Assembly (NCBI RefSeq): GCF_017875735.1
Contig: NZ_JAGGMZ010000001.1
Location: 1,984,001-2,048,000, forward strand
Direction: 5' to 3'
From: Arthrobacter sp. CAN_C5
GTDB lineage: Bacteria > Actinomycetota > Actinomycetes > Actinomycetales > Micrococcaceae
DNA length: 64,000 nucleotides
Shown: in pieces, positions 48,351-64,000 of the stretch
How the letters are laid out: every line of letters begins with the position of its first letter
Numbering within the stretch: position 1 is the first letter of the stretch
Notes under the pieces: model-generated
Database searches by the model: none
Seen by the model: the letters and a program-made list of their open reading frames with translations, nothing else
What the model was told of the DNA's origin: nothing
Position numbers and translations under genes: made by a program

Positions 48351-48419
48351 ATGCATAATCTTCAGGACCTCACCATCCGCTCCATCTCCGTCAGCGAGAT
48401 GGACAACAACACCCTTTGA
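48351..48419 (+). pseudogene. 5' remnant of an MBL-fold hydrolase gene cut by the integrated element
   Basis: 22 codons starting MHNLQDLTIRSISVSEMDNN and ending in a stop two codons later. To my knowledge this matches the N-terminal pattern of small MBL-fold hydrolases (..VSEMDNNxYLLT..) found near uvrA/uvrB in actinobacteria. TAGACT at 48339-48344 ends 7 bp before the ATG and would give a leaderless mRNA. The rest of the gene should lie at the far end of the element. The family call rests on only about 20 residues. Confidence 0.55.
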
Positions 48420-48436: not shown

Positions 48437-49921
48437 ATGACCGCTTCGCCGGCTCCGAAACGTGCAGCTATCTACATCCGTCAGTCTCAGACTTCAGACG
48501 GCACCATCTCCCCTGCCTTGCAGGAACAGCACGTTAGGGAGTTCATTGCACGGCAGGACGGCTGGACGGTCACTAAGGTCTACTCCGATATCGACATATC
48601 CGGACGCAAGACCACCAATCGACCGGAACTGCTCGCTCTGGTAGCTGACTACAACAAAAAGAAGTTCGACATAGCGGTAGCTGACGACTACAGCAGGTTC
48701 GCACGGAACATGGCAGATGGTGCGGATCTCATCGGTTCAATGTCGGTTGCTACCTATGCTGAAGGCATCCCAGATCCGGAGGACGACTTCGCGCCATTGC
48801 TGTATATGTTGCTCGCTCATAAATACGGCAAAGAAATGGGCAAGCGCTGGAGGGCTGCGCACGCATACCGGATAGCGGCAAAGCTACCGCCCAATGGAGT
48901 CAAGCAGTTTGGTTATGACCGGTTTGATAAGGACGGAAAGCCGGTACTGCCGACCGCCAAGGGCAGCGTGCAAGAATACCGGATCAACGAGGATGAAGCC
49001 GCGATCCTTCATGACCTATATAAGAGGTATACCCAAGGAGAAGGCTCGATTGCTCTTGTGCAAGACCTGACTAAGCGCGGCGTCAAGACAGTGCGCGGTG
49101 GAGACTTCTCAAGCTCACAGCTCCTAGACCTTTTGGATAAGCCGTTCGCCGCTGGCTACTTCATCTGGGACGGCAAGGAGTACGAGGGAAAACATGAGCC
49201 GATCCTGACCGCTACTGAATGGGAGCGATACCAAGCAAAGCGACTGGAGCGCAAGGTGCATCAAGCACCACGGAATCCGAAGTGGTGGCTGGCAGGCATT
49301 GCCAAGTGCGGCAGATGTGGCGCGAACCTCGTCAGTACAACCATCAAAGGTAAGCAGTCCGTGAACTGCTCTGTCTATAACAACAAAGGTAAGGCCGCAT
49401 GCGCTGGAGTGTTCAGGAAGCGTGCCACGGTGAACTATCACACGATAATGTGGCTCTTCCGTCAGCGTGAGGCTCTGGCCGCTGTGATGCCCACGGATGA
49501 TGAAGCACGCTTGGCCGCAGAGAGTGCAGTCGAGGAAGCACAGACGAGTTTGGACAAGTCCAGGAAGGCGTTAACGGATCTCCTGTTGACCATGGCTAAG
49601 CATGGTTTGACTGAGGAAATGGCCGCTGACGCTATCGCAGTCCGCAAGACTGAACTTGCTGACGCGTCAGAAGACCTCAGGCAGGCTCAGCTAGCCCTTG
49701 GGGGATTCATCCCGGCGACGACCATCAGTGAGCAACTTGATAAGGGCTTTGAGCTTATGGGGATGAAGCCTGAGGATGAAGAGCTTTCCGAGCAAGCGAT
49801 TCCAGCATTCAGGGAAGCTGTCTCAAAACTCTTGAAAGAGGTACGCGTGCTTCCTCCTGTGGACGGCAACCGGAGCCCTAACCGGGATATGCGACCGGAG
49901 ATAGTTTTCGTTCCGCAGTGA
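48437..49921 (+). CDS. int: Large serine recombinase (integrase)
   Basis: 494-aa site-specific recombinase. The resolvase catalytic domain has the nucleophile S17 in YIRQSQ and the arginine motif DDYSRFARN at residues 83-91. The recombinase domain follows (FGYDRF..), then a zinc ribbon with C291, C294, C311 and C322, and a coiled-coil arm around residues 355-410. This is the layout of phage and ICE integrases that recombine attP with attB. It starts 17 bp beyond the cut hydrolase gene and is read away from the core. Confidence 0.93.
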   Translation: MTASPAPKRAAIYIRQSQTSDGTISPALQEQHVREFIARQDGWTVTKVYSDIDISGRKTTNRPELLALVADYNKKKFDIAVADDYSRFARNMADGADLIGSMSVATYAEGIPDPEDDFAPLLYMLLAHKYGKEMGKRWRAAHAYRIAAKLPPNGVKQFGYDRFDKDGKPVLPTAKGSVQEYRINEDEAAILHDLYKRYTQGEGSIALVQDLTKRGVKTVRGGDFSSSQLLDLLDKPFAAGYFIWDGKEYEGKHEPILTATEWERYQAKRLERKVHQAPRNPKWWLAGIAKCGRCGANLVSTTIKGKQSVNCSVYNNKGKAACAGVFRKRATVNYHTIMWLFRQREALAAVMPTDDEARLAAESAVEEAQTSLDKSRKALTDLLLTMAKHGLTEEMAADAIAVRKTELADASEDLRQAQLALGGFIPATTISEQLDKGFELMGMKPEDEELSEQAIPAFREAVSKLLKEVRVLPPVDGNRSPNRDMRPEIVFVPQ

Positions 49922-54641: not shown

Positions 54642-54740
54642 GTAGCGGATAGCCGTTCGAGCACGAGGGCTGCCACAGCTCTTGGGGCGAAATGGTACGC
54701 GGGGCCCGTGAAGCGCGTGTTGAACTCCGCGGTGGGGTAG
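54642..54740 (+). pseudogene. Decayed 3' end of a second serine recombinase gene
   Basis: 33 codons ending in TAG align with the end of the recombinase at 53550-54212: VAD..AATALGAKWYAGPVKRVL here against IAD..VATAHGGAQWYASTVKRVL there, with one codon missing. The DNA match is around three quarters. Only the helix-turn-helix end survives. Confidence 0.65.
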
Positions 54741-54964
54741 AAGCCCTTACAGTTGCCCTCTGGCGTGCACGAGAGGGGTGGAGTTGCCGCCGGGGCTGTA
54801 CAGAACACATTCGGGTGGAAGGCATCTTTGCGCACAAATTAGTCAGGATCCCTCCGAGCCGGCTTTCCAAACACCTCAGATGGCGGGCTCAAAACCGGTT
54901 TGGAGTGGTCAACGGAGAAGTAGGCTTTCCAATAACTTTATCTGAGAATCCCGGAGGAGATCTG

Positions 54965-55307
54965 ATGGCCTGGTTGAAACGCAACGTATTCGTGTTGGTT
55001 ACTGTAGCAATCATGGTCAGCGCTATTGGTCTCGCAGTTAACCTTTTGCACCCTGTGCTATCGATTTCCCCTACCGACGAGAACGCTGTGCCAGCATTAG
55101 CTGCAGCCATAGCAGTGACCGGCGTACTGACCGCGGCAGCTGCTACCCTCACCGGGGCCTTGCTAAAACAGTCCATCGATCTCCGGACAACCGCATTAGC
55201 CGAGCAAGCGGCGGACAGGGCTACTGCCGATCAACAGCGGCTGTTGATGGAAACAGCCTTGCAGACCGTAAAGCTCCTAGGCTCCGATCAAGGCAGCGCA
55301 CCTGTAG
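54965..55307 (+). pseudogene. Membrane protein gene, 5' half (split by the IS3 insertion)
   Basis: The ATG at 54965 follows GGAGGAGA. Two hydrophobic segments (about residues 8-28 and 40-66) precede a helical stretch. The frame continues after the insertion at 56865: joining the copies of GTAG restores an uninterrupted frame of 255 codons (..GSAPV-GGSAALIVLSKLGEL..). Function unknown. The open frame upstream to 54692 covers the recombinase remnant and is not part of the gene. Confidence 0.7.
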
Positions 55308-55349
55308 TGCGGGGACGGAATTTGTCAAGGTGAATGAGGCCAGTGGGAA

Positions 55350-56864: not shown

Positions 56865-57290
56865 GTAGGGGGATCCGCTGCACTCATCGTACTCTCCAAA
56901 CTCGGTGAATTGCGCTTAGCGCTGGACCTGGCGCACGAGCTATGGCCTAACGATGAGATATCAGCGAGTTCTGCGGTTCAACTCATTCAAGCCGGTCTCC
57001 TGAGCACCGAAACCGATACGCAATATGAAGCCGCAATGCTCCTGCGAAACAATACAAAACGCTTGGACGTATTTGAGAATCAATATGAATGGCCCCGTGT
57101 ATTGGACCACTGGCCGATTGCATTCCCAGCGGATGTCCGCCTATTGATAGCCATTACTCTTCAGGAGTGGATTCGCGTACGCTCAGCAAGCGATCAGGAT
57201 TGGCGCCTCGAACTGATTCGAGAGGGGCTCGCGGTCGACCAAGACAAACGGATAGAGGGAACACTTAGGTCAATCCAGTTAATGCACTGA
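56865..57290 (+). pseudogene. Membrane protein gene, 3' half (split by the IS3 insertion)
   Basis: Open from 56862 without a start codon of its own until internal TTG codons; continues the frame of 54965-55307. It encodes a helical, acidic domain (LRLALDLAHELWPNDE.., YEAAMLLRNNTKRL.., LEWIRVRS-like LQEWIRVRSAS) that looks like a repeat of alpha hairpins. Its last 26 bp overlap the convergent gene at 57265. Confidence 0.65.
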
Positions 57291-57927
57291 GGTAAGACTC
57301 CGTTTGATGCAGGAGATTCAGAACAGCCTTCTTGGCGGCTTCCCCCCTCTTCTCCAAAAGCTCCAATTCCGCATCCTGTGCAGAAAGACCTCGAGACAGC
57401 CTCTGCTCTTCAGTAGCGTCATAGAATCTGGTTAGCTTGAGGTGCCGGTCGAGTAGCGCGACCGTCTTATGAGCTTCAGCAAGCGGGCTTTCATTCTTGA
57501 ACAAACCACGGTTGATGTTTCCGTCGAGGGACTCGATGTATTTGCGCAAATCGTAGACAAAATTAAAAACTTTCTGAAAAACCTCCTCGTTATCTGTCGG
57601 AAAAACGTTTGACTCGAGATCGACCATGGCTAGACGAAGCCCTTCCAAGGCTTTAGCAGCTGCGTCTGCACTGACCACAGGTGTAGTTACGTCTGTACTG
57701 ACCCCAGGTGTAGCTACGTCTGTACTGACCACAGGTGTAGCTACGTCTGCACTGACCACAGGTGTAGCTACGTCTGCACTGACCACAGGTGTAGCTACGT
57801 CTGCACTGACCACAGGTGTAGCTACGTCCGGACTGACCACAGGTGGCTGAGTATTTTGAAGATCCGTAGCAGACGAGATCTGCGCGTTTGCCCTTATAAG
57901 AACCGCAACATCCTCACGGGGGCTCAT
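57265..57927 (-). CDS. Hypothetical protein with a nine-residue tandem repeat
   Basis: 220-aa protein. Residues about 28-88 are six to seven copies of a nine-residue unit (SADVATPVV-like), encoded by 27-bp DNA repeats. The remaining C-terminal 130 residues are helical and charged (NEEVFQKVFNFVYDLRKYIESL.., LDRHLKLTRFYD..). No family recognised. It starts 3 bp after the stop of the 171-aa gene and is co-transcribed with it. The repeat tract could act as an extended linker. Confidence 0.6.
   Translation of the reverse strand: MSPREDVAVLIRANAQISSATDLQNTQPPVVSPDVATPVVSADVATPVVSADVATPVVSADVATPVVSTDVATPGVSTDVTTPVVSADAAAKALEGLRLAMVDLESNVFPTDNEEVFQKVFNFVYDLRKYIESLDGNINRGLFKNESPLAEAHKTVALLDRHLKLTRFYDATEEQRLSRGLSAQDAELELLEKRGEAAKKAVLNLLHQTESYLSALTGLT
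57670..57846. repeat. 27-bp tandem repeats, about 6.5 copies
   Basis: Units start at 57670, 57697, 57724, 57751, 57778, 57805 and (partial) 57832; consensus ACTGACCACAGGTGTAGCTA plus CGTCTGC. Neighbouring copies differ at zero to three positions. Period 27 keeps the reading frame of the gene. Confidence 0.95.
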
Positions 57928-58671: not shown

Positions 58672-59673
58672 TCAGATCCCATGTCCACCCACAGAGCCGT
58701 CCAGTCCTTGCTCACCGATGAGCCTCACAATGGCATTCCTAATATCGATCGGATCATCACCGATGTTCCACATCGTGTACGTAAAGCTGTCGGGATACCT
58801 CGCTATGGCTTGCTTAGCGCTTGCGCTTAGATCCTGATTACCGATCAACAGTGCCCTGGATACTTCCCCTGAAGAATGTGAGGAGAGCAGCCTTGGACCG
58901 ACACTGCCCAACTCGCCAAGGATCTGTTCCACAACCCTACGGTCTATCAACCGAGACCGAAGTTTCGCCTCAATACCGATGAGTTGTCCGTCTTGCGTTT
59001 CAAGTATCCAGTCAAACCTTTGGCCATAGTTCGAGCGACTTTCGTGTATGTGCGCGCCTTCTGGAACAACTGACCGCAGAACGTGATCGACGGAGCGCTC
59101 GTAAACAGCGTATTCGGCGGCTGGACCGAGGAGTGGTGCGGGTATGGCCGCCAGTGAATCTTCCACCGCGTCCTTGACCACGGGATCCTTTGCCTCGCTG
59201 AACATTCCAAGTACTTCCCGCACTGTATCGGCCTGCAACTCGGAAAGAGATCCCTGTTCCGATAGGGATCGGAGGATTGATACAACGGCCAGAATCTCTC
59301 CAGATTGCTTCGTTCTGAACTCTTTGGCCTCAGAATAAGCCCACCTCAGCGTGGACCACCATTGATCTTCCGTATTTTTCCGCGCAGTTTCACTATTCGC
59401 GCGATCTGCGCTCCTGTTCGCGTCTTGGTTAAGCTGATTTGCTGCTCTTGTCTCAGAAACTTGCTGGTTAATTCCGTGCAGGGCTATCAATGCCGCGCCT
59501 ACAGCGAACAGTCCAGCCATCGGCGGACCGGTTAGAAAGTCATGTGCGAAGTTACCAAGATGAAAGAACACGTGGTCGCCCACCTCCACGAGTCGAACCA
59601 ACAAAGGGAGATGCTGGGACCACTGCCAGGCTAGCGCTGCTGCAAGAAAGCCGACCACCTGCTCTGCCGTCAT
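58672..59673 (-). CDS. Membrane-anchored protein with PD-(D/E)XK-like nuclease motif
   Basis: 333-aa protein. Hydrophobic segments at about residues 5-17 and 52-68 place the N-terminus in the membrane; a charged helical region (QWWSTLRWAYSEAKEF) follows. The C-terminal third has RFDWILETQDG..LIGIEAKLRSR: D221, E235 and K237 approximately, in D-x13-E-x-K spacing, the core of Mrr/PD-(D/E)XK endonucleases. Its ATG overlaps the stop of the restriction-modification gene (ATGA). Not recognised as a known family. A defence role is inferred from the motif and coupling. Confidence 0.65.
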   Translation of the reverse strand: MTAEQVVGFLAAALAWQWSQHLPLLVRLVEVGDHVFFHLGNFAHDFLTGPPMAGLFAVGAALIALHGINQQVSETRAANQLNQDANRSADRANSETARKNTEDQWWSTLRWAYSEAKEFRTKQSGEILAVVSILRSLSEQGSLSELQADTVREVLGMFSEAKDPVVKDAVEDSLAAIPAPLLGPAAEYAVYERSVDHVLRSVVPEGAHIHESRSNYGQRFDWILETQDGQLIGIEAKLRSRLIDRRVVEQILGELGSVGPRLLSSHSSGEVSRALLIGNQDLSASAKQAIARYPDSFTYTMWNIGDDPIDIRNAIVRLIGEQGLDGSVGGHGI

Positions 59674-62600
59674 TCAAGAATATCCATACTTGGAAGGGCG
59701 GCAACGATCCGGTTTGTTTTAATCGAAATCGTAACGATCCGCTTAATCAGGTCAATGATGTATCGCGGATTATCAACTTCACGGCAATAATCATTGGGAT
59801 CGTTAGCGATCTGCGAATCCTTGTGCGTGGTCACCTGGTATCGGTCAAGAATCCACTCAAGCGCGGACTTGCCATTGACCTGGTACTCGAAGGCCTCGTC
59901 CGGGATTCCGGCAAGTGTAATGCGCGAGTTGTAGATAATCCGGGACCGGTCCTTCCGAGCACCGAAGGACATCTTCGTTACACGGTAATATTCGTATCGA
60001 GCCTCTTGTCCGTCGATGTCCCCTGAAGGCGCGAGCGATGAAGACATCTCTTCAAGAGGGTGGGGGTCCACCGTTTCGTAGTTGAGATGCAGATCGGCGA
60101 GACTGCGGCCAGCAAAGCTGAATCCCCAGAAGTCCTTCAACTTGGGGATACGTGGCAACATCTTCATTAGATCCGCCTTGTACGTCTCCCTGTATGCCTG
60201 GCTGTGCAGGAGGCCGTATACGTAATAGAAGACGTCTTCCTTACCTATCTTCGAATCCTTATAAAAGCTCTGGTAGGTAGCAAGTGTTGCCGCTGTCACA
60301 TTATCGCGACGAACGTACCCGTCCATGACAACGCTGTCTTTCGCTTTCAACGGCAGCTCGCCTTCAGGAAGCGGCTCGTACGTGTAGAGGCTGAAGAACT
60401 GCGTGGCGCTTAGTAGATTGAGGTCGGGCAGCACATCGACCATTAGAACCGACCAATCCTTGCGGTAGTCAGTAGTCATGCCGATCGCTCGGTTATGGTG
60501 GGCACGTGTTGGAAACAGCTTCGGCAAGGAGTACACATACTCATTTAGGATGCGATCGAAGTAAACATTTTGTTTGCAATACGGGCGATACACCGCTGGG
60601 CGAATTCTATCATGTGAGTAACGAATCTCCCGGCTGACTTCTGCGCTCTTTTTGAGTGCACGTGTCCAGCTGATTGACTTTGGATCATAATCCATCGCGA
60701 CGGTCAACCGGTTGTCTGACCGCTGGCGGTCGTATTCGTCAATCATCCCCGAGATGTTCGAAGTCAGCTTTTGCATCGAAAAGTTATATGCCCAACTGTC
60801 ACGAGCTGTAGTCAATCCTAGGCAATACGTCTCAAATAAGGGCTTCTTGGTGGTGACTCGCTTCGATGTTCTTACTCCGACCGGCTGAAAAGCGTCGTAC
60901 CGTTCGTCTCGTTGATTAACCCAGTCACCGTGCTCGTTTGGGACAATACGATCCCAATTTGTCCCTTCAATGGACTGCTCGGTGTCCAATATGTCGAGCT
61001 TCTGTTCTCTTGTTAGGTAATCGCCGATATCTCGATAGTGAATTTCCGTGGGGTCTGTGCTTGCGGAGTTTTTAATTAGCACGCAAACGGCAACCTGTGT
61101 GCGTGACCCGCTGCCGAATACCTTACCGCCTTCCTTTCGGGAGAGGTCGCCCGAAGTCCGTTGGTTTCCACGAAGGTTGTAGATGAACATCCGACTAAAC
61201 TCGTTCGCAAATGTCTTCCGTATCCCGTCCGCAGTGTTGGCGTCGATGAAACTGCCATTCGAAACGAAAGCTATGACGCCGTCGCGATTAATTCGATTTG
61301 AAGCCCAGCGGATGCTGCGAATGTACGAATCGTATAGATTGGCACTGTTGGTCGCGGTGCTGCTTCGGACGTAAGTAGCGGAAATTGAGGCATCCAAAAC
61401 GGGGTACGCCTGATTTTGGTTGTCGTCGTTCGCGTTGCTCTGTCCTGCTGAATACGGCGGATTCATCACAATAACCCGGATATCCTGCGTCTTCTGCCGC
61501 TGCACGCGCTCTGAGTTCTCCGGGAATACCACTGACTCGAACGCACCGTCCGATTCATTCAACTGGAAAGTGTCTGTCAGGGTAATACCCTCGAAGGGAA
61601 CATATCCGTGGTCTAGCCCTTGCCGCGTCGATTCCTCGGCGAACACAGCCTCGATGTTGATTGCCGCGATGTAGTAACTAAGCAGAACAATCTCGTTGGC
61701 GAAGAGTTCCTGCGTGTACTTTCGGTGCAAATCCTCCGGCTTGATTAGCCCGGTCTGCAACAGCCGAGTCAGGAACGTTCCTGTGCCCACGAAGGGTTCC
61801 AGGATGGATACGCCTTCATCGGATAGAGACTTGCCGAACTCAAGCCGCAGCGCTGCGTCTGCCGACCGGAGAATGTAGTCGACTACGGGGACAGGGGTGA
61901 ATACTATGCCAAGCCGGTCCGCGACGCGGGGAAAGGCATTACGGAAGAAGTTGTCATACAGCTCCAGAATGATTTTCTGCTTGGCGGCTGCGTTGTCGAT
62001 CGACTGTACTCGGGCTCGGACGGAATCGTAGAACTTCTCCAAGCCAGCGCGTTCCCTCTCGAAAGCCGAGTTCTCATCGAGTTGGTTCAGGATGTTCTGC
62101 ATCGCCACGGACACGGGGTTGTGCTCGGTAAAGTTGGAGTCCTTGAACATGGCGTCAAAGACGGGCTTGGTGACCAAGTGCTGAGCGAGCATCTCGACTG
62201 CCTGCGCTTGGTCGATGTCCGGGTTCAGGTTCGCTTGCAGGCCTTGAATGAAGTCATCAAAGGCTTCTCGATGTTCTGAGTTCGCTTCGTTCAGGAGGTT
62301 GTTGATGAGGGCGATATGCTTGCCGGCGATGTCCGCGATATCCTTGGACCAGTCTTCCCAGTACATACGATTGCCGCACTTGTCCACGATCTTCGCGTAG
62401 ACGGCGTCCTTCCACTCATTCACCGGGAACAACAGCTCGGGCTGCTCATAGACGGACTGGCTCTCGCCACTTTCGCGCTCGCCGCCTGCGTCACCGGAGG
62501 AATATCCACTTTGGGAGTTCGCGCCAACGTTGGTTTTGGCCTTCTTCTTCGGTGCCAGGTCGACAGTCTCGACGAGAATAGATTCGGGTGCTTTGGCGTT

Positions 62601-64000
62601 GAGCTCGATCTGGTTGATTGCGGCGTCCATCCGCTCATCGTGGGCGCGCAGAGCTTGCAGGACCTGCCAGACCACCTTGTACCGGTCGTTATCCCGAAGC
62701 GCCTCGGATGTGGACATACCGTCGGGGATGGCGATCGGCAGGACGATGTACCCGAACTGCTTGCCCTCGGCGATGCGCATCACGCGACCGACGGCCTGGA
62801 TGACGTCAACCATTGAGTTTCGAGGGTTGAGGAACAGGACAGCGTCCAGGGAAGGGACGTCGATGCCTTCGGTGAGGCAGCGGGCGTTGGTGAGGATCCG
62901 ACACTTCGGGTGATCGGTATCGAGCTCCTCCTTGAGCCAGTCCAGGCGCTCGGCGCGGGTAATGGCGTTGAAGCCACCGTCTACGTGTTTCACTTCGACG
63001 CTCAGGTCGTCTGTGACATCGTCGTTGTCGAGATTGGTCAGATGCACACGAACTAAGTCCCCAAACTCAGACTCGACGAGCTTGGAGGACTTAATGTCCC
63101 GATTGAAGGCGACCGCTCGGCGCATGGGAGCAGTGTCGTTGCCGAAGGACGCTTCATGCAGGCCGGAGCGGCGTTTGGCAAGCCCGTTCCAGCAGCCGAT
63201 GAGTTTCGCGACGTCGTCGATCTGCAATTCCATGTTGGAGTCCGCGAGCTGGTCTTGAAAGCTCGACACGACCTGGCTTTGCTCTACCCCCAAGACTAGG
63301 ACTTTGTAGTCGGTCAGAAGCTTCTTAGTGACTGCTTCGCCGAAGCCGATGCGGTAAAACACCGGCCCGTACATGCTCTCGTCGTCCATGGAGCACAGGA
63401 TTGCGTCGCGCTCAAGTGCTTTGTTCTTTGTGTCGTCGTTGAACAGGCGGGGTGTGGCTGTCATGTACAAGCGCTTCACGCCGGAAACGATGTCATTGCG
63501 GTGCACCTTCACAAAGTGGGATTCCGCAGTGCCGGCCAAGGTGGCACCGGTTGTCCGGTGAGCCTCGTCGCAGATGATCAGATCAAAGTCTGGAAGCCCG
63601 GCCTTCTGCGCCTGGGATACCGCTTCGATGGACTGGTAGGTGGAGAACACCACCGTCATGCCCTCATCAAGCTCGCGAGAGCCCATCGCGTCAAGCAGCG
63701 TGGTCCCATCCGTGGTGGCTGGGATCTGCAGGTCGTGGAGAGCGACGTCGGTAAAGTCTGAGTTTTTCTGCCGCCCGACCTTCGTATCAGAGCACACTGC
63801 ATAGGCGTGCAGGACCTGCGTCGTCTCATCCGACCATTCCTTAAGCGTCTGAGACATCAACGCAAGTGAGGGGACAAGGAACAGGATCCGGGCGTGGCCC
63901 TCCTGCTCAGCAAAACGCTCTGCGACCTTCAGCGCGGTGAAGGTCTTGCCGGTACCGCAGGCCATAATGAGCTTGCCGCGATGGTTAGTCTCAAAACCCT
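59670..64000 (-). CDS. Type ISP-like restriction-modification protein (helicase plus N6-adenine methylase), N-terminus missing
   Basis: At least 1442 residues; the frame is open past the right edge. SF2 helicase: Walker A CGTGKT (63942-63962), DEAH (63559-63570), TATPR (about 63450-63465) and motif VI AVGRVMRI. An N6_Mtase domain follows: SAM motif EPFVGTGTF (about 61773-61799) and catalytic NPPYS (about 61450-61465). A C-terminal part of about 500 residues is the likely target-recognition region. This order matches single-chain LlaGI/LlaBIII-type enzymes, whose Mrr-like nuclease would lie N-terminal, outside the window. Confidence 0.88.
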   Translation of the reverse strand, partial: GFETNHRGKLIMACGTGKTFTALKVAERFAEQEGHARILFLVPSLALMSQTLKEWSDETTQVLHAYAVCSDTKVGRQKNSDFTDVALHDLQIPATTDGTTLLDAMGSRELDEGMTVVFSTYQSIEAVSQAQKAGLPDFDLIICDEAHRTTGATLAGTAESHFVKVHRNDIVSGVKRLYMTATPRLFNDDTKNKALERDAILCSMDDESMYGPVFYRIGFGEAVTKKLLTDYKVLVLGVEQSQVVSSFQDQLADSNMELQIDDVAKLIGCWNGLAKRRSGLHEASFGNDTAPMRRAVAFNRDIKSSKLVESEFGDLVRVHLTNLDNDDVTDDLSVEVKHVDGGFNAITRAERLDWLKEELDTDHPKCRILTNARCLTEGIDVPSLDAVLFLNPRNSMVDVIQAVGRVMRIAEGKQFGYIVLPIAIPDGMSTSEALRDNDRYKVVWQVLQALRAHDERMDAAINQIELNAKAPESILVETVDLAPKKKAKTNVGANSQSGYSSGDAGGERESGESQSVYEQPELLFPVNEWKDAVYAKIVDKCGNRMYWEDWSKDIADIAGKHIALINNLLNEANSEHREAFDDFIQGLQANLNPDIDQAQAVEMLAQHLVTKPVFDAMFKDSNFTEHNPVSVAMQNILNQLDENSAFERERAGLEKFYDSVRARVQSIDNAAAKQKIILELYDNFFRNAFPRVADRLGIVFTPVPVVDYILRSADAALRLEFGKSLSDEGVSILEPFVGTGTFLTRLLQTGLIKPEDLHRKYTQELFANEIVLLSYYIAAINIEAVFAEESTRQGLDHGYVPFEGITLTDTFQLNESDGAFESVVFPENSERVQRQKTQDIRVIVMNPPYSAGQSNANDDNQNQAYPVLDASISATYVRSSTATNSANLYDSYIRSIRWASNRINRDGVIAFVSNGSFIDANTADGIRKTFANEFSRMFIYNLRGNQRTSGDLSRKEGGKVFGSGSRTQVAVCVLIKNSASTDPTEIHYRDIGDYLTREQKLDILDTEQSIEGTNWDRIVPNEHGDWVNQRDERYDAFQPVGVRTSKRVTTKKPLFETYCLGLTTARDSWAYNFSMQKLTSNISGMIDEYDRQRSDNRLTVAMDYDPKSISWTRALKKSAEVSREIRYSHDRIRPAVYRPYCKQNVYFDRILNEYVYSLPKLFPTRAHHNRAIGMTTDYRKDWSVLMVDVLPDLNLLSATQFFSLYTYEPLPEGELPLKAKDSVVMDGYVRRDNVTAATLATYQSFYKDSKIGKEDVFYYVYGLLHSQAYRETYKADLMKMLPRIPKLKDFWGFSFAGRSLADLHLNYETVDPHPLEEMSSSLAPSGDIDGQEARYEYYRVTKMSFGARKDRSRIIYNSRITLAGIPDEAFEYQVNGKSALEWILDRYQVTTHKDSQIANDPNDYCREVDNPRYIIDLIKRIVTISIKTNRIVAALPSMDILE

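Follow-up and report, generated by a model that had tools for sequence, protein, structure and literature searches.

The 64,000-nucleotide (nt) stretch of the Arthrobacter sp. CAN_C5 genome analyzed here, called the window below (positions 1,984,001 to 2,048,000 of contig NZ_JAGGMZ010000001.1), carries at its right end two genes on the minus strand: a Type ISP restriction-modification (RM) gene and, directly behind it, a gene for a protein of 333 amino acids (aa) that is predicted to join a membrane anchor to a nuclease-like C-terminal domain. The stop codon TGA of the ISP gene and the start codon ATG of the second gene are parts of one ATGA, so that the overlap described in the initial annotation is confirmed by the sequence. 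In window coordinates, the pair comprises the following features.

59670..64000, minus strand: Type ISP restriction-modification gene, the whole gene reaching window coordinate 64544 (Pfam, PADLOC, open reading frame [ORF] L002:3670-8544)
59670..59673, minus strand: ATGA shared by the ISP stop codon and the start codon of the 333-aa gene (sequence)
58672..59673, minus strand: gene of the 333-aa protein, predicted to be membrane anchored, with a PD-(D/E)XK-like C-terminal domain (ORF, translation, relatives, alignments)
59464..59541, minus strand: hydrophobic segment, residues 45-70, predicted membrane anchor (Kyte-Doolittle scan; same place in relatives P0003 and P0004)
58714..59127, minus strand: C-terminal nuclease-like domain, residues about 183-320 (profile of seven relatives, which matches restriction nucleases)
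59011..59013, minus strand: codon of D221 (D in 7 of 7 C-terminal domains; alignment)
58963..58971, minus strand: codons of E235-x-K237, kept in 5 of 7 domains, N-x-Q or N-x-T in 2 (alignment)

Judged by its domains, the upstream gene encodes a Type ISP enzyme: a single chain holds the helicase, the ISP coupler, the N6 methylase, and the specificity domain at the C terminus. In the part inside the window, Pfam gave matches over cut-off to Type_ISP_C (E 7.4e-102), ISP_coupler (5.7e-49), and ResIII, and scored N6_Mtase at 19.9 bits against a cut-off of 20.4; a PADLOC restriction-methylase match spans the protein at full length. Reading the genome to the right of position 64000 yielded the whole protein of 1,624 aa, whose gene begins with GTG at window coordinate 64544 (L002:3670-8544). 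Near its N terminus lies an Mrr-type nuclease motif, D65...Q79-x-K81, which is present in all seven ISP proteins aligned. The gene is thus complete, and the view that such an enzyme carries its own N-terminal nuclease, which the initial annotation had drawn from LlaGI-type enzymes, holds for this one. Since the ISP protein has a nuclease motif of its own, its partner is not needed to supply one.

In the 333-aa protein, the hydrophobic segment at residues 45-70 is followed by a long helix, a helical region, and the C-terminal domain with D221 and E235-x-K237; residues 3-30 are also modeled as a helix, at low confidence. Where several N-terminal membrane segments had been proposed, a 19-residue Kyte-Doolittle scan supports one clear segment (residues 45-70) and not several. 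The proposed D-x13-E-x-K motif near the C terminus is there, as D221-x13-E235-x-K237. A D-x8-16-[D/E]-x-K pattern also turns up in 30% of shuffles of the protein, so the motif was rejected as sufficient evidence for a nuclease, and the protein itself does not match a stricter pattern that asks for hydrophobic strands around the motif. The motif is raised above chance because it is conserved in six relatives at 18 to 30% identity (full-length alignment), which with the window protein make up a family of seven.

An alignment of just the C-terminal parts of these seven proteins shows no variation at the D or at W302, a tryptophan farther downstream; in some rows of the full-length alignment gaps shift the D column, and the D is not listed as invariant there. 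The E-x-K is intact in five of the seven (the window protein, P0004, L070, L155, and L176). The two relatives that have lost it come from the same genus and the same family (L007:8721-9713, N-x-Q; L156:1294-2454, N-x-T). The protein family is sparsely distributed: we found one other relative among 38 genomes of the genus (the host's own counted), no convincing further one in 295 genomes of the family, which was sampled anew, three in 396 genomes of the order (G934, G093, and G895), and one in 394 genomes of the class (G476), the four genome samples overlapping. The relatives in class and order were picked by eye from the listed proteins; the raw matches came from 21 of 394 genomes and from 23 of 396, the host's own being counted. 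Most of these rows were dropped: they are membrane proteins that are short and lack a nuclease-like domain, pentapeptide proteins, or matches due to chance (DNA ligase, for example); two family-level matches were also dropped, one a short membrane protein (G124) and one that looks like chance (G269). A plasmid search returned one record with the window protein and three, all from Corynebacterium glutamicum plasmids, with one and the same relative; searches of genome contigs, viral contigs, and phages returned no relative. Proteins related only to the N-terminal part are mostly short and have a membrane segment and a WW pair but no nuclease-like domain; the membrane module is therefore a common actinobacterial part to which such a domain was added in a few cases.

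What the C-terminal domain is can be approached from several sides. The C-terminal profile was run on 4,525 ORFs (≥80 aa) of 80 other ISP loci (see below), and only two matches reached an E value of ≤0.5: one, near L108, is a predicted restriction nuclease (E 5.9e-4), and the other is the Mrr-type domain at the N terminus of the L112 ISP protein (E 0.14). In both, the D and the E/Q-x-K are in register. Family matches of the 333-aa protein below cut-off were weak (DUF4143, E 0.15, in Pfam; SfsA, E 0.0061, in NCBIfam), as were the best PDB row of a four-member profile (MGME1, E 0.055), the second PDB row of the seven-member profile (4ic1, E 0.26, aligned at the motif), and a direct profile comparison of the domain with Mrr domains (probability 5%). 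SfsA and MGME1 are PD-(D/E)XK nucleases, and 4ic1 is a Cas4 nuclease. In both structure models of the protein, which are of low confidence (mean predicted local distance difference test [pLDDT] scores of 55.8 and 43.3), the succession of elements and the positions of D221 and E235/K237 are compatible with a PD-(D/E)XK core. In the second Foldseek list, EndoMS and MspJI come third and fourth (E about 0.01; TM-scores of 0.25 at most), below two rows of African swine fever virus RNA polymerase; this was not used as evidence. Taken as a whole, we consider a PD-(D/E)XK fold of the C-terminal domain highly likely, and the second protein very probably has a domain of this type behind a membrane segment.

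To place the pair among other ISP genes, a scan of named genomes was made; it gave at least 581 ISP loci, of which the best 80 were used. These are not a random sample, and some of their contigs (L112, L136, and L141, judging by length) repeat those of a set of 197 family genomes. Three of the 80 loci with less than 400 nt downstream (L086, L130, and L146) were left out of the count, as were four ORFs (L080, L094, L118, and L133) that were not kept by the gene caller, a simple longest-first (greedy) script rather than a trained predictor. A close partner was defined as a called gene of at least 100 aa on the same strand that starts at −40 to +60 nt from the ISP stop, and 314 genes from these loci, each encoding 300 aa or more, served as controls. 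Such a follower stands behind 34 of 77 other ISP genes versus 99 of 314 controls (Fisher two-sided p 0.044), and overlaps of 4 bases or 1 base occur at 12 of 77 versus 21 of 314 (p 0.020), both p values being uncorrected for relatedness. In the family set, 20 of the 197 genomes hold an ISP match at E ≤1e-100, and the genes that overlap the ISP stop, besides that of the window, encode an 814-aa protein (G181), a GNAT protein with a weak PIN match (G132), a member of the UDG family (G034), and an AAA_15 protein (G169); in G104 a GIY-YIG gene starts at −8. The 814-aa protein (L055:4931-7375, minus strand), whose gene overlaps the ISP stop by 4 bases, has no match in Pfam or NCBIfam (E ≤0.01) or in PADLOC (E ≤1e-5). 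Another ISP stop is overlapped by the gene of a 665-aa protein (L056:6230-8227, minus strand) that has an acetyltransferase domain together with a weak PIN match; a short membrane protein of the same N-terminal type as the window protein (L056:14186-14968) is encoded about 1 kb upstream of this ISP gene.

The proteins in this position are diverse. A Pfam scan took in 28 of the 34 close partners (L136 and L141 as their copies L057 and L041), and 19 of the 28 matched a family over cut-off, one of these matches (Dor1 in L090) being probably a coiled-coil artifact. The families matched include GmrSD, Cap4 nuclease, Mrr (twice), VRR_NUC, AAA_15 with an OLD-type TOPRIM, AAA_13, AAA_15, ApeA, FRG, OGG-like, and UDG; HAD, NA37, EcsC, PIF1, DUF4357, and DUF6883 are represented as well. 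Several partners are thus of defense type (Mrr, GmrSD, VRR-nuclease, ApeA, and the GajA given below). Both Mrr partners (L106 and L145) and the VRR_NUC partner start at −4. PADLOC, run on ten proteins, labeled those of L126 as GajA (E 1.5e-225), L122 as candidate family PDC-S06, L106 as a Type IV enzyme, and L075 as "Orf5," and found no match for L099, L121, and L055. None of the 34 close partners is a membrane protein with D...E-x-K; four are hydrophobic enough for membrane proteins. Even the nearest ISP relatives, 75 to 79% identical and from Pseudarthrobacter, Arthrobacter, and Paeniglutamicibacter, have different followers: GmrSD at +5 in L075, L077, and L078, another gene at +134 in L076, and no same-strand gene within 100 nt in L074. 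Across nine close ISP loci, DNA homology gives out about 9 to 66 nt short of the ISP stop, or at +2 in one pair; only the GmrSD trio differs, its homology continuing through the partner. Since homology breaks off near the ISP stop except where the partner is shared, what follows the ISP gene is, by these alignments, exchanged as a unit, and a modular slot behind ISP genes is a better statement of the arrangement than a dedicated pair. A search of the open-access literature on Type ISP enzymes and RM accessory genes turned up no description of a gene partner of Type ISP enzymes.

The pair travels on an 18.4-kb serine-integrase element that extends from window position 48396 to window coordinate 66827 (L002:10827) and is inserted at the 5' end of a metallo-beta-lactamase-fold gene, with a 15-base repeat at both ends and the recombinase at one.

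48396..48410, no strand assigned: left attachment-site-like core repeat (right copy at L002:10813-10827, window coordinates 66813-66827; 14 of 15 bases identical)
48437..49921, plus strand: serine-type recombinase/integrase next to the left repeat (ORF; family recognized by eye; absent from empty sites)

Between about 48 and 66.8 kb, the G+C content drops from about 0.63-0.68 to 0.49-0.61. The empty site, in which uvrA, a GntR-type gene, and the metallo-beta-lactamase-fold gene stand together, was found in 10 of the 11 loci that were fetched, out of 36 relatives that hold the last of these genes (the names of all three, like that of the recombinase, were assigned by eye). Elsewhere on the element, a 220-aa ORF (57265-57927, minus strand), for which no family was found, contains seven copies of a 27-base tandem repeat (57658-57845; 94% matches) that encodes a repeated nine-residue unit, and two further small proteins (54692-55333 and L002:10262-10696) are predicted to consist of a membrane segment plus helix; neither has a clear family match, the latter having been scanned with NCBIfam only.

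Among described systems, the closest model for the 333-aa protein comes from Shield. ShdA is bound to the membrane, with a membrane segment near its N terminus and, at its C terminus, a nuclease domain whose fold is restriction-endonuclease-like. It is reported to act as a nuclease in vitro, to occur beside other defense systems and on mobile DNA, and not to have been cloned in truncated, anchor-less form, which was presumed toxic; Shield is reported only from Pseudomonas (PMC10270631). A long coiled-coil version of ShdA is described from inside Type I restriction loci of Pseudomonas (PMC11090510). The window protein likewise has a predicted N-terminal membrane segment (residues 45-70) and a C-terminal nuclease-like domain and lies on mobile DNA. 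Unlike ShdA, to which the RmuC domain PF02646 belongs, it has no PF02646 match in Pfam; the single PF02646 match of the host genome is another locus, and BLASTP against this host RmuC gave an E value of 0.12, outside the nuclease-like domain. Unlike in Shield, moreover, the partner enzyme is of Type ISP. The best reading of this comparison is that the effector may work like ShdA but is not Shield. Another parallel is PrrC, an anticodon nuclease embedded in a Type I locus (EcoprrI) and silenced by it, which is described as an RM guardian (PMC12707154): as with PrrC-EcoprrI and other RM guardians, an accessory effector would share an operon with a DNA-restricting enzyme, whereas there is no sign here of tRNA cleavage by the 333-aa protein or of its silencing. 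The ISP gene itself has the same domains as LlaGI and LlaBIII, single-chain enzymes with Mrr nuclease, superfamily 2 (SF2) helicase, coupler, methylase, and recognition domain; in contrast to the window gene, these are described as single proteins, and the accessible text discusses no downstream partner (PMC4666363). Mrr-type (Type IV) nucleases, finally, resemble the 333-aa protein in being of PD-(D/E)XK type and in standing behind ISP genes at −4 (L106 and L145), but the window protein has no Mrr_N or Mrr_cat match in Pfam. By these domain tests, it is neither a Shield ShdA nor an Mrr or Type IV enzyme.

We therefore favor, with a probability of roughly 0.45, the reading that the 333-aa protein is an interchangeable second-layer effector in an accessory slot behind a complete Type ISP enzyme. 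The ISP protein would recognize, methylate, and cut DNA by itself; the partner would be made from the ISP transcript by translational restart at the ATGA, which would keep its output proportional to that of the ISP protein. Sitting at the membrane and probably cutting DNA, the partner might act as a second layer on DNA that the ISP enzyme has missed, or it might be let loose when a phage blocks or evades that enzyme. The model is drawn from ShdA, which stands beside other systems and is the best model, and from PrrC beside EcoprrI. It is tempting to extend it and to see the 3' end of Type ISP genes as a general effector slot, with the ISP enzyme as sensor and first line and the coupled follower (Mrr, VRR-nuclease, GmrSD, a DNA glycosylase, an ATPase, or, here, a membrane-anchored nuclease) as a guardian triggered or licensed by ISP activity or inhibition. 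We regard this extension as rather unlikely; if it were true, the window pair would provide the first example of a membrane-bound nuclease in this position.

Several observations count against the reading of the protein as a second-layer effector. Pfam, PADLOC, and NCBIfam give it no match over cut-off; the top PDB match of the seven-member profile, 2p6c (E 0.026), is not aligned at the motif; the mean pLDDT of its two structure models is low, as given above, and neither of them returned a Foldseek match at E ≤0.001; and E-x-K is replaced in two of the seven proteins, by N-x-Q in P0003 and by N-x-T in L156. The excess of close or overlapping followers behind ISP genes, real as it is, is modest, and ISP genes lie among mobile and defense genes anyway. 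Furthermore, no member of the 333-aa family occurs in the 80 other ISP loci, and the flanks fetched for the six relatives, each 10 to 20 kb long, contain nothing that matches the ISP protein in tblastn at E ≤1e-3. The initial annotation had suggested a fixed two-component defense system and had looked to homologues beside restriction genes; with an ISP gene in the fetched flanks of none of the six relatives and a single XamI-type restriction gene about 4 kb from one of them, this suggestion is not supported, and the fold prediction does not favor it either. A dedicated, conserved system of ISP enzyme and membrane nuclease was accordingly rejected as a general statement, the pair not having been seen twice.

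The company that the relatives keep bears on the main rival, which we consider nearly as likely as the favored reading: that the protein belongs to the mobile element, serves defense or DNA processing on its own, and only makes use of the ISP transcript, with no functional link. P0003 (G002) stands alone near an apparent recombinase remnant. The relatives without an ISP gene in their fetched flanks that speak for this rival are P0004 (L010), on a small mobilizable plasmid that also holds the XamI-type gene; the G476 protein (L070), with a YaaC-like gene 3 nt downstream and an HATPase gene facing it; the G093 protein (L180), behind which a gene encodes an ABC-3C C-terminal domain (CTD6, E 4.2e-36); the G895 protein (L181), with a TIR gene nearby (E 3e-9); and the G934 protein (L179), whose fetched flanks show no evident defense neighbor. 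Defense company is thus frequent in these neighborhoods, and restriction company is rare. Moreover, 43 of the 77 ISP genes have no close partner, which implies that ISP enzymes do not need one, and nearly a third of control genes (the 99 of 314 above) have close same-strand followers too. However, the start codon of the 333-aa gene lies inside the ISP stop codon, overlaps of 4 bases or 1 base are in excess behind ISP genes (12 of 77 versus 21 of 314), and a simple consensus scan found promoter-like sites near the overlap in numbers not above chance, all of which count against a mere passenger.

Two further alternatives concern the domain itself. The loss of E-x-K from two family members that keep the rest of the domain would suit a tether that lacks catalytic activity or only binds DNA and that serves to hold DNA or the ISP enzyme at the membrane, yet D221, E235, and K237 are all kept in the window protein and the same residues in four relatives, and we hold this to be improbable. 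That the D/E/K motif is coincidental and the protein a membrane protein of another kind might be argued from the frequency of the motif in shuffles (30%) and from fold and family matches that are weak and mixed; conservation across seven proteins and the profile matches to restriction nucleases make this a very improbable explanation.

Type ISP enzymes have been studied as self-contained machines. If the slot behind their genes regularly holds a second effector, the enzymes studied so far may be only half of the natural defense units, and new effectors could easily be sought in that slot. In the case of the 333-aa protein, an actinobacterial family of membrane-anchored nucleases, standing parallel to Shield of Pseudomonas, would show that the anchoring of a DNA-cutting domain to the membrane has arisen more than once.

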